A stretch of 24,459 nucleotides of DNA from the NCBI GenBank assembly GCA_026770585.1, contig MU646490.1:483117-507575 (forward strand). Direction: 5' to 3'. Of this stretch, positions 4,866 to 19,400 are shown in pieces. The notes beneath the pieces are model-generated. The model made no database searches. It was not told the origin of the DNA and saw only the letters and a program-made list of their open reading frames with translations. Position 1 is the first letter of the stretch. The number at the start of each line of letters is the position of its first letter. The DNA is from Baffinella frigidus. Lineage: Eukaryota > Cryptophyceae > Cryptomonadales > Baffinellaceae. The position numbers and the translations under genes were made by a program.

Positions 4866-7800
4866 GTCTCTCTCTCTGTCTATAACACACACACACACTC
4901 TCTCTCTCTCGCTCGCTCTCTCTCTCTCGCGCGCGCGCGCGCTCTCTCGGGTGTGGTTCTCTCACCGTAAGCTTCTGGTGCTCAGCCTTGTAGTAGGCAT
5001 AGAACTTCTTCCCGGTCGAGCGGGGCAGAGCCAGCGCCATCCGGCACCCCACCACCTGCCACCGCAAGGAAAGTCACCAACCACTACATACATCGCGTGT
5101 GCCTAAAGTCATCGACTACTACATACATCGCGTGTGCCTGAGGGTTTGACCGCCAAGAGGTCCTAGCCAGGTCCTGGGGTACCACCTGACAGCCATAACA
5201 CATACTCCTTTATTACCCTCAGGTTCGGGCTGGCTCCCTCCTTTCAGAGAGACACCACCACCAACCCTCCCGGGAGGCCCAAATCGACGATTTTAAAATC
5301 TTGGATTTCCCCTACGGAGGGGTCGGATTCGACCCCTCTGCCCGAAGGAAATAGCTCAAAACAGATCGTCGATTTGGTCTGACCGTGAGGGTTGGTGGCA
5401 GCGTGCCAACGTCTCAGTCACCCCCCTCCGTCCCTACCACATCCTGTAACGTGTTCAATCGCGTACCGAATCGGGGATCGCTTTGTTACCGGGAAGAGGA
5501 TGTATGTGAGATAAAAGGCTGAACCGTTTGAGCCGTTGACCGCTGGGAATTTGAACGGTGTTCAAATGATACTGTGCCAGGTTGGAGGCGAGAGGACGAG
5601 AGGGCTTTACCCCTGGCTGGACCAAGGTGATGACGCGCACGGTCTTGAGGGTCATGACGATCAGAATGATGTTCAGCAGCCTGGTTTAGTGTTAAGCGTT
5701 TAGTGTTTAGTGTTTAGTGTTTAGGGTTTATGGTTTGGGGTTGAGGGTTTAGTTTAGGGCTTAGGGTTTGGGGTGTGGGGTTTATGGTTTAAGGTTTATG
5801 GTTTATGGTGTATGGTGTATGGTTGAGGGTTGAGGGTTGAGGGTTTGGGGATGACGCGTTGAAAACGACGATGCCCGTTACCGTCATCGCCGCGTAATCC
5901 CCAAACCCTGAACCCTGAACCTCAAACCAGAAACGCCGTGCTGCCATACTCGGTCATCGACGCCAGGGCACAAGTAGAAGTTTTACACACACTCGTTCGC
6001 GCTAAAAGTGAATAGATGGCTTATCATTGCAGACTTCAAAAAAACCACCCGCCATCAAAGAGCTCCAATTCCCATGACTTTGACGTGGTCCCCGGTAGAA
6101 TGAAGTTGAGTCGGACAGGGTTCGGGGGGTACGCGTTGACAACAGCGTCGATGACCGTCACGGTCGTCGCCGTGCTGCCGAACTCTGACACCTGAGACAG
6201 TGTTTCAGGATTAGAGTTGAGGGTTCAGGGGTTTAGTGTTGCCGAACTCTGACACTTGCGTTGGGGTGTGAGGTTTAGGGTTTAGGGTTTAGGGTTTAGG
6301 GTTCGGTTTACGGTTTAGGGTGCAGGGTTCAGGGTTCAGGGTTCAGGGATGTGTTGAGAGTGTCACGTGTTGAGATGTTCAGTGTCGGGAGTTCATGGAA
6401 TTCGGTGTTAAGAGTTGGGGTTTGGTGTTCAGGGGTTATTCTAGCTCTGCCCCACTTGGATTCGGGCTCCTCATAAATTCACCCCACCCAAATTTCACAG
6501 GTCAACTTTGACCTCCCCCCCGTGAAATTCACCTGTAAGGGGGGGGGGCGAATTTATGGGAAGCCCAAATCTAAGTGGGACAGAGCTAGTTATTGTGGTT
6601 GGAGGTACCTTGCCTACGTAGATCCTTACCATTTCGGAGAAGAACGGGACCGCCTGGTTTAGGGTTTGGGCTTTGGGGTTAGGGTTTAGGGTTTAGGGTT
6701 CAGGGTTTAGGGTTTAGGGTTTATGGGTTAGGGTTTAGGGTTTAGGGTTTAGGGTTTAGGGTTTAGGGTTTAGGGTTTAGGGTTTAGGGTTTAGGGTTTA
6801 GGGTTTAGGGTTTAGGGTTTAGTGTTTAGGGAGAGGGGAGCAGGGAGATAGGAGAAGGAAGAAGGGAGAAGGGAGAAGGGAGCAGGGAGCAGGGAGAATG
6901 GAGGATGGAGAATGGAGAATGGCGAATGGTGTAGGGTTTGGGGAGGAGGGCCATGCCTCGCGGAACACAGCCTTGAGGGTCTAGGGTTTAGGATTTTGGG
7001 TTTTGGGTTTAGGGTACAGGGTTTAGGGTTTAGGGTTTAGGGTTTGAGGTTTGGGGTTGAGGGTTTAGTGTCTAGTGTTTAGTGTTTAGGGTGTAGGGAG
7101 AAGGAATAAGGGAGAAGGGATGCGGATCAGGGGGGTTGCCTCGCGGAACACAGCCTTGAGGGTTTAGGGTTTAGGATTTAGGGTTTAGTGTTTAGGGAGA
7201 GGGGAGCAGGGAGATAGGAGAAGGAAGAAGGGAGAAGGGAGCAGGGAGAATGAAGAATGGAGGATGGAGAATGGAGAATGGTGTAGGGTTTGGGGAGGAG
7301 GGCCATGCCTCGCGGAACACAGCCTTGAGGGTCTAGGGTTTAGGGTTTAGGTTTCAGGGTACAGGGTTTAGGGTTTAGGGTTTGGGGTTTGGGGTTGAGG
7401 GTTTAGTGTCTAGTGTTTAGTGTTTAGGGTGTAGGGAGAAGGAAGAAGGGAGAAGGGATGCGGATCAGGGGGGTTGCCTCGCGGAACACAGCCTTGAGGG
7501 TTTAGGGTTCAGGGTTTAGGGTTTAGGGTTTAGGGTGTAGGGTTTCGAGACTAGGTTAGAGTGTAGGGTTGAGGGATGAGGGGGCTTGCCTCGCGGAAGA
7601 CAGCCTCGTGCACGAACATCACCGATCGCTTCTCCTCCGACGTCTGCCGAAGACCAACACCCTCACACGTCAACACCAATTCCCTGACTAGCCGTATACA
7701 CTATACTAAACACTAAACACTAAACCCTAAAGCATAAAACCCTATGACGTGTGGGAGCATTGCTCCGCGGGCACCAGTCAAGAGGAATTTGCTGATTAAG

Positions 7801-16400: not shown

Positions 16401-19400
16401 AGGAGGCTGCATCGTTGTTCCGCGACCGACCCAGCCCGCCGCCTGCACACCCACAAAACTATTCATTAATTGCTTTTGGCCCAACGGAATTTGCTACACA
16501 AATGCTCTACTTTACTTTTATGAGCACATCGTGTAGTAATTTTCGTTACCCAAAAGCAATTAATTAATACTTCTTTGGAGATTAGCCTGCGCATCCCCAC
16601 TTGGCAGCGGCCGAGTTCCTTTTCACCATGAATTCAAGGTGAAATTCCGGTTAGAATTCAGCGCAATGGATAAGATTCTGGCACAAATAGTTGAGATGGA
16701 CTGCATCCGTGAAGACCTCGGTGGCTGCTGCTAAGTGGTCAGGAGGGGGCGCGCCGTTTATCCAAGTGAAAGCACCGTTAACGACCGTTCACGGAGGCCA
16801 GAGCGCCCTTCATTAAGGGGAGTATCGCGTTCATCGACTGTGTAGCACGACAGAGGAAAGCTCAGGCTGCGTGCAGGAAGAGACTTGGGGGCAGGTAATG
16901 AGACCACCTCCCCGAGCGGTCGCCGCGCTCCGAAGCCCTCCTGCGATCGAGCAGCGCCGCACCTTACCCTTACTTACCCCGCTGGGGTCCGCACGCCCCC
17001 CACTAGCCCCCTTTTCGCGGCCGCGCCACGTGCCACAAAGCGGGCTACGAAGGAATTTTCGGCCCATTTCGGGCCGAGTTTCCGTTACCTTATCCGTAGG
17101 AACCCCCCTTTGCCCCTACGGGTTACCTACCGTAGGGTCCTAGGCCTTATCGCTTAGGGGTTATTCAAAATCCCTTGGAAGTCCGGTGTGTGGATGGTCA
17201 AGTGATAAAGCATGGGAGCGTACCCTTGCCCCGGTCTCCGAATTCGGAAGCGCTCTCGTTATCCAGAAGCGACACCTCGTACTCCGCGTGCAGCCGATTC
17301 AAGAACCTGCAGTCGGGGTTCGGGTTTCGGAGGCTGTGTTTCGGGAGCAGCGTTGTGGGTCCAGGGTTTCGGGTTTCGAGCGAACTCATGCAGAAACACT
17401 TTTGCTTTATAAACTCGGATTCAATCAAAAGTACTACACGTTTGCTTTAATATTACTAATAAAGATCGCTCTGTGTAGTAAATTTCATTGAACCTAGTGT
17501 ATAAATTCAAACTGTTTCCATGTGAGGACGTACCGGCGAATGGTGTGGATGCGCCACCAGGTTGCGTTTCGGGTGCAGCCACGCGTGGACATTCTCCGAG
17601 TGGTCATTTTCCTCTCAGGAAAGAAGAATTTTCGAAAAGTTGGTACAAATTCCGTGTGAACTGACTTGTTCTCCCAGGTCGCCAGAACACTCTTGCGTGC
17701 AGTGTTTTGGGTGCAGTGTTTCTCCTAGACCCTAGACCCTAAACCCTAAACCCCTAAATCCGAAAAAAGGTTGGAGCGAACGCACCGGTCCATGGTGTGG
17801 ATGCGCCACCAGACGATGGCGACACCCGCCACAAACGCCAGCGGCGAAATCGCGATGAGCACCCACTCCAGAGTCTGCCGCCCTTCCCACCCGGGCGCCA
17901 CGGAGGAGGTCGCGATCCTGCAGTACCGTTTCGTGTAAGAGAGAATTTATTGATTACAAGACCAGCGTGGCCACATTCTAAGACCTCCTGCGTTTGTTTT
18001 GGTACTGCCAGGATCAGGAGTTGTCTCACAAATATAAGGTTCTTTCGACGCCAGCTTCCACCAAACCTTTTCAAAGCCTCCATTTCTTCGGATTGACAGT
18101 AAAGGTATTGTTTCATCTTTCATCCTCTAATTTATAAGTGAGGTAACTGCCCACATAGTAAATGGACAATCAATGGTATAAAGATGAAGCACATGAGGTG
18201 GTGTGGATGGTGCACTGCGTTTGGGGGTCGTGCACGGGCTGTCTAGGCGCATTGTGCAAACGGGTTAGTCAAGCCGCTTGTTGGGGTAGTCAAGCCTCTG
18301 GTTAGCCGAAGGGGGTGGGAGGCCGACCCGCAGAGGCAGAGCCAGAGGACATGGGCGTGGATGCCCCCGCGAAACTTGTTGGAGTAGCCGCACTGGAACG
18401 GCAGCTTTATGAGGTGGTACCTGCCAGTTTGGAGACAATGGGGGCACCACCATTTACAGATCAGCGATCCCGGCCGCGGCAAGCTGAGGCTCAGTGCCGT
18501 GACACCCGTGGGGGCAGAGGCCCACTTTCGCCAGGAAGAGCAGCAGAAGCAGCTGAATTCCGGGTGTGTGGCCGAGTACGCGTCTGCACTATCGGCTTCG
18601 TTTGCTGCGTTTATTGGAGTTGAACACACTCATGTCTGAAGAAAGGGTGGCAGGGCCAGAAAACGCGTGCGGGGGGGCGGGGAGAGCGAGAGGAAAATGG
18701 ACAACGTGCGGGGAGAGAGCCCCGCTTCGTTACGCAAGCTTCCAGCCCTGATGGGCTTTTTGGGACCTGAAGCGGATCAAATCCCCTCTACACTCACCCC
18801 CTTTTCAGACTTTGAAACATTTCAGGCCTCGAAAAAGGATTTGATCCGCTTGAGGGCCCAGAAAAGCCCTCCAGGGCTGGAAGCTCGCGTGACGACGCTG
18901 AGAGCAAGGGTCCGCCGAAGTCGCTCAAATCGAGGCTGGAGAGTTAGCCATTTTCTTTGGGGGAAGTGTGAATTCTAACCTTCCTCCAAGGAAATGTCTC
19001 AATTGCCATCCTCCATGTGAACAACTTCGGGGGGCGCGTGGAGTTTGGGCGGGATTCAATTGGGTGCGGACCAGAAAACGCGGGCGGCGAAGAGCGAGAG
19101 GAAGATGGATAGCGCCAAGGGAGATAGCCCCTCTGAGAGGAACGGGAGCAGTACCGCCGCCACCTTTGCGTTTAGGGTTTAAGGTTTATGGTTTATGGTT
19201 TATGGTTTATGGTTTATGGTTTATGGTTTATGGTTTATGGTTTATGGTTACGGTTTATGGTTCATGGTTTGGGATTTCGAGTTTATGTTTTATGTTTTAT
19301 GGTTTATGGTGTATGGTGTATGGCTTATGGTTTAGGGTTTGGGGTTGAGGAGAACAGTGGTGATCTTCGTTTGAGAGAGAAACCACGTGGGTGCAGAGCA

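Follow-up and report, generated by a model that had tools for sequence, protein, structure and literature searches.

Telomere-type repeat arrays in introns of Baffinella frigidus and their orientation relative to the gene

Results

The stretch of DNA analysed here (the window) comprises 24,459 nucleotides of the genome of the cryptophyte Baffinella frigidus (contig C188, 483117-507575; genome 382 Mb, 1364 contigs) and carries on its minus strand a long multi-exon gene, many of whose introns contain arrays of the telomere-type heptamer TTTAGGG. A piece of this gene matches the Pfam family TPR_TmcB (4.2e-10), and we refer to it as TmcB-type. The gene model was obtained by dynamic programming and has 31 exons, with one or both ends possibly incomplete; the exon numbers are those of a preliminary description of this DNA. 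Comparison with homologues led to corrections of the model: an exon at 13447-13563 was dropped, a new one, 13b (15924-15970), was inserted, and some boundaries were shifted. The donors of the modelled introns are GT in 25 cases and GC in 5, and all 30 acceptors are AG; these splice classes are imposed by the model itself. A protein search with the gene returned five relatives, all from B. frigidus: four are named as such and one comes from transcriptome MMETSP0987 (taxid 697907, B. frigidus), which we take to be strain CCMP2293. In genome searches with two of the annotated relatives their own loci were not seen, the best matches being 80% and 77-78% identical.

The transcriptome peptide (P0001, 480 residues) matches window exons 11-12-13-13b-14 without mismatch over residues 368-480 (113 residues), covering four junctions. 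Its first part resembles the window gene without being identical to it, a paralog-like part joined to the exact part, and the peptide is probably an assembly chimera. Among the four introns spanned is one that is about 87% array (15750-15923): it begins GCGCTGAA(CCCTAAA)5, followed mainly by units of the types CCACAAA and CCCCAAA and by a final GCAG. A mostly-array intron is removed in an expressed gene, and the proposal in the preliminary description that telomere-type repeats act as intron sequence is supported. Their precise removal, seen over four junctions, and the GT/GC...AG ends identify the introns of the window gene as spliceosomal.

At least three heptamers with no more than one mismatch to CCCTAAA or TTTAGGG were found in 19 of the 30 modelled introns. 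Summed over all 30, the sense strand holds 327 CCCTAAA-like and 18 TTTAGGG-like units, with only 2 and 1, respectively, in the first seven introns. The exact heptamer TTTAGGG occurs 101 times on the plus strand of the window and 6 times on the minus strand, against an expectation of about 1.5 per strand at equal base use. Tandem Repeats Finder (TRF) reported 16 telomere-type arrays, not all independent since some between 6656 and 7555 share a repeated block; 14 are C-rich on the sense strand and two are G-rich, so that the near-uniform orientation previously described holds. In four introns the arrays cover a fraction of 0.86 to 1.00. AG and GT are very few on the sense strand of most arrays and usually many on the opposite strand; the exceptions are 15471-15693, with 8 AG, and 8911-9612, a stretch that includes exon 26, with 11 AG and 6 GT. 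Pooled over 16 heptamer arrays of whatever unit, the sense strand has 0.97 AG and 0.49 GT per 100 nt.

Eight exons had been listed as preceded by CCCTAAA-derived sequence ending in CAG, or in CAAAG at exon 9. In seven (9, 23, 24, 26, 27, 29 and 31) CCCTAAA-type heptamers, some of them variants such as CACTAAA, stand directly before the exon. Exon 25 is the exception: although its acceptor (...CCCCTCAAACAG) is C-rich, the intron of 598 nt before it contains only 6 CCCTAAA-like units, and TRF reported no telomere-type array in it. The acceptor endings are as described, except that exon 27 reads CCAG/C and not CAG/G (the slash marks the splice junction). One array, at 19170-19340, lies just beyond the range given for them, 5623..19163.

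Table 1. Coordinates in the window of the gene, its array-bearing introns and associated features
Feature	Position	Strand	Details and support
TmcB-type multi-exon gene	5618..22340	-	Gene model, Pfam, B. frigidus homologues, tblastn of homologues on the window
Intron 30/31	5681..6048	-	Array 5683-5850 stops 2 nt short of acceptor
Intron 28/29	6654..7589	-	TRF cover 0.77; 72 C-like, 0 G-like units; GC donor; acceptor CCCTAAACCAG/G
Short array in intron 27/28	7705..7744	+	Exception: G-rich on sense strand
Intron 26/27	8785..9156	-	TRF cover 0.86; acceptor CCCGAAACCAG/C
Intron 25/26	9224..9613	-	TRF cover 1.00; 42 C-like, 0 G-like units
Intron 23/24	10312..10505	-	TRF cover 0.96; acceptor CCCTAACCCAG/G
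Intron 22/23	10571..11907	-	1337 nt; 40 C-like, 1 G-like units; TRF cover 0.25
Intron 14/15	15277..15697	-	TRF cover 0.53; CCCGAAA/CCCGAGA type; 8 AG in array
GC-AG intron	15750..15923	-	174 nt; TRF cover 0.87; removal supported by transcriptome peptide
Exon 13b	15924..15970	-	P0001 VRLTFKTGGGAYACC, junctions; missing from the preliminary exon list
Intron with degenerate heptamers	15971..16302	-	9 C-like, 0 G-like units; removal supported by transcriptome peptide
Short array in intron 11/12	17693..17758	+	Exception: G-rich on sense strand
Intron 8/9	19164..19513	-	Array 19170-19340 (CATAAAC type) stops 6 nt short of acceptor GCAAAG/G

Protein kinase genes provided an orientation that is independent of the repeats. 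From 108 stranded Pkinase matches we took stretches between neighbouring matches, irrespective of their repeat content; 15 of 20 were used, cut to the intron, with C662, C18, C231, C131 and C1237 excluded for size only. In some of these 15 the kinase matches contain stops, and the genes concerned may be pseudogenic. Nine stretches contained 15 arrays, 14 of them C-rich and one G-rich on the sense strand, and the other six were array-free (two-sided sign tests, p = 0.001 for arrays and 0.004 for stretches). All nine array-bearing introns, which lie on nine contigs, are C-rich on the sense strand, with 268 C-rich units to 19 G-rich. Together with the window gene, the strand bias is observed at ten loci and extends to other genes. 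In one of these introns (locus L055; GT-AG, 406 nt, acceptor CCCTAAACCAG) the joined exon ends read VTLWYRAPELL, split as VTLW/YRAPELL, presumably a conserved kinase motif; across another (locus L069; GC-AG, 372 nt, nearly all array) they read SADLKTLKL. Ab initio gene orientation and Pfam searches on ten open frames of the fetched stretches were too weak for use, a RuvX match being the lone strong one. A weak RCC1 match (E 0.03) lies on the minus strand of L021, where a 575-base array is C-rich on the minus strand and a short array runs opposite.

Genome-wide, exact (CCCTAAA)3 gives 53,120 matches (27,288 + 25,832) and the same pattern read backwards 27 (14 + 13); the arrays are therefore not due to chance. 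The sequence (CCCTAAA)2 is followed by CCAGG in 450 cases (229 + 221) and by CCGGA, the same letters in another order, in 32 (18 + 14), a 14-fold gap. Array-to-CAG/G junctions are enriched across the genome and, with the VTLW/YRAPELL junction, support the earlier suggestion that arrays reach 3' splice sites. A looser pattern, with GCAGGH within 20 nt, gave 1952 C-rich matches after CCCTAAACCC (1108 + 844) and 671 G-rich matches after TTTAGGGTTT (362 + 309); these counts take some arrays more than once, and in many of the 671 the GCAGG belongs to the array, as a variant unit in register. Twenty contig ends were fetched, of which 10 read N, and in 0 of the 10 others did an exact TTTAGGG array stand at the end. 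One contig (L048; G000:C25, last 3000 bases) ends in 57 bases of TTGAGGG-type repeats (2944-3000), and two further readable ends finish in degenerate units.

How the arrays change can be read from their variant units. The window and the nine kinase stretches together provided 28 arrays with 744 units, in which identical variant units stood side by side 118 times, compared to 34.7 +/- 4.8 when units were shuffled within arrays. The arrays expand through local unit duplication, whatever seeds them.

Capture of telomeric repeats at chromosome breaks had been proposed as the origin of these introns, and we examined intron boundaries and a paralog. Direct repeats at the boundaries of the 30 introns, three of them with uncorrected boundaries, have a mean shared length of 2.37, equal to the control of mismatched pairs (2.38), and do not bear out capture. 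On the same numbers, target-site duplications of the kind left by introners were not found in these 30 introns. The corrected intron 15750-15923 has GCAGGCG at both ends, a single case seen by eye, where 7.6% of mismatched pairs share at least 5. The paralog lies on the same contig (C188:307272-310661, plus strand), on the opposite strand to the modelled gene and about 178 kb from it; its intron sites were deduced from exon-by-exon matches rather than from its letters. The matches are broken near window introns 15/16, 16/17, 17/18, 18/19, 19/21 and 21/22, and one unbroken match of 51 to 52 residues runs over the site of window intron 22/23. This match extends two residues beyond the site of intron 23/24 and then stops. 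In the window, each of the six introns that the paralog shares has between 0 and 4 units, and the one that it lacks has 41 (40 C-like, 1 G-like). Since the shared introns are array-poor, the comparison does not show arrays growing in old introns, and it raises the odds of intron gain. Intron 22/23 would be one candidate for a gained intron, or for a loss in the paralog; the comparison fits either direction.

Several further observations were made. Within 6828-7458 arrays of a GGGAGAA-type heptamer adjoin telomere-type arrays, and by eye a block of about 350 bases with both types seems to be repeated there. Next to exon 19 the end of an exon is partly duplicated in tandem, with variants of ENDA.SNILKYR coded at 13434-13475, about 13552-13671 and 13768-13886. 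Inspection by eye also revealed elements with inverted repeats (hairpins) around CTACACA/TGTAGTAA at 1818-1945, 3990-4085, 16465-16565 and 17400-17520, in introns and outside the gene, which look like small non-autonomous transposons. Rfam at the gathering threshold gave no match in the window. On contig C1 (G000:C1:185687-189998, loci L006-L013) telomere-type arrays of 366, 736 and 816 nt share one orientation; no exon search was made there. Four of five IMG/VR contigs (L001, L003, L004 and L005; L002 was left out) carry heptamer arrays of about 67-109 bases, which do not lie at the tips; these contigs may be viral or misfiled algal sequence.

Discussion

The reading that we consider probable is that in B. 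frigidus degenerate TTTAGGG-type arrays are widespread in spliceosomal introns, that their C-rich strand lies in the pre-mRNA and, in arrays extending to the 3' end of the intron, forms the sequence leading up to the AG, and that this orientation is set by splicing. Selection by splicing would best explain the orientation through the dinucleotides of the two strands. The CCCTAAA unit has no GT or AG, and C-rich copies in the transcript may be neutral or usable. The G-rich strand offers a GT and an AG every seven bases; G-rich copies would therefore be expected to disturb splicing and to be lost. The G-rich repeat could also form G-quadruplexes in RNA. As for the suggested branch point in the unit, set against the consensus CURAY its CTAAA is no perfect match, and the variant CTAAC does match. 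A further step, which we put forward as doubtful, would make telomere-type DNA a running source of introns, seeded in genes and then duplicating, in which copies transcribed as the C-rich strand would be ready for splicing: they supply pyrimidines and a CTAA that resembles a branch point, and they lack GT and AG up to the CAG at their end.

Several results weigh against the main reading. Transcript-derived support covers only 4 of the 30 junctions, and a transcriptome peptide sought over exons 21-29 was not found. The CCGGA pattern behind the 14-fold gap is a single permuted-ending control, and it contains a CpG. The RuvX match lies on the plus strand of L048, and the only array found there, 1.7 kb off, has its G-rich side on the plus strand. 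Upstream of the acceptor, introns that end in an array have a longer run free of AG (median 54.5, n = 12, versus 25, n = 18), a difference that was not significant (p = 0.06). Unit changes that create AG or GT were not rarer in genic arrays of known sense (9 of 30 G-changes) than elsewhere (6 of 39), where arrays may be partly intronic; this speaks against strong selection on single units and leaves room for a mutational cause. A transcription-linked mutational bias could yield an identical orientation.

Where the arrays come from is a related question. Telomeric repeats may, as first suggested, have been captured at double-strand breaks in genes, giving rise to introns if their C-rich strand happened to be splice-competent; this is possible, if short of probable. 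Introns 9224-9613, 10312-10505 and 15750-15923 are array almost from donor to acceptor, and among the seven sites compared with the paralog the six shared ones are unit-poor and the absent one is rich in C-like units. Telomerase-linked insertion at breaks, which the available part of PMC2246262 documents in mammals, provides a precedent. Against this, the boundary repeats do not exceed the control, TRF arrays cover just 25% of intron 10571-11907, the paralog offers a single case in which gain and loss are not told apart and whose sites come from exon matches, and TTTAGGG is a putative telomere motif of B. frigidus.

Alternatively, the arrays may never have been telomeric, and C-rich branch-point or pyrimidine-tract sequence at intron ends may have grown by slippage into a telomere-like heptamer. 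The many local variants, the strong identity of adjacent units, the several arrays that abut acceptors and the lack of exact TTTAGGG arrays at the 10 readable contig ends would all fit such an origin. We regard it as rather unlikely given the dominance of the exact plant-type motif (53,120 triple units against 27 backward), the contig end in TTGAGGG-type units and the two in degenerate ones, and the arrays of up to 816 nt on contig C1.

It is also conceivable that the orientation arises by mutation, with transcription-linked events such as R-loops, replication-transcription conflict or strand-specific repair favouring arrays whose G-rich strand is the template. The bias is also present in arrays deep in introns, far from splice sites, and the unit changes described above agree with this view. 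On its own, a mutational bias would not lead one to expect so many arrays that run exactly into CAG/G (450 versus 32), and we think it unlikely. An assembly artefact or chance is highly improbable, for although a gap of 10 N lies inside one array of the window, arrays occur on many contigs, peptide-backed junctions exist and the nine kinase introns are on nine contigs.

The oriented intron arrays can be set beside several known systems. The interstitial telomeric sequences of mammals (Nergadze et al. 2007, PMC2246262), as far as the accessible portion of that source describes them, are likewise tandem telomere-type repeats at internal chromosome sites. The B. frigidus arrays differ in being very abundant, intronic, of one orientation and continuous into splice sites. 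Introners (Gozashti et al. 2022, PMC9860276; Amoebophrya, PMC7789003) share with them, in the excerpts at hand, a repeated sequence that builds introns nearly end to end in several genes, whereas the B. frigidus arrays are tandem heptamers and not a dispersed unit, with target duplications not above control. The part of PMC9860276 available contains no telomer*, cryptophyt*, Guillardia, Baffinella, tandem repeat or minisatellite. In the chlorarachniophyte Amorphochlora amoebiformis tandem repeats swell introns genome-wide, with [AT]n in half of 26 inserted introns (PMC12730881, partial text). Its introns are similarly rich in simple repeats; the repeat differs ([AT]n, with a telomere of TAACCC), and telomere-type arrays with a strand preference in introns are not described in that partial text. 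Selection against spurious splice signals has been reported for the polypyrimidine tract (PMC10946897, in the portion accessible), the type of force that we propose for array orientation, acting there on base composition and not on repeat arrays. Our literature search, over sources available in part, found no description of strand-biased telomere-type intron arrays.

Arrays that fill introns tie telomere repeats to intron evolution. With exact copies in the tens of thousands, the genome offers a testbed for what an intron requires, one orientation of the heptamer being common and the other rare. If it is true that some of the arrays are new introns, they would represent an intron source distinct from both transposons and duplicated exons.

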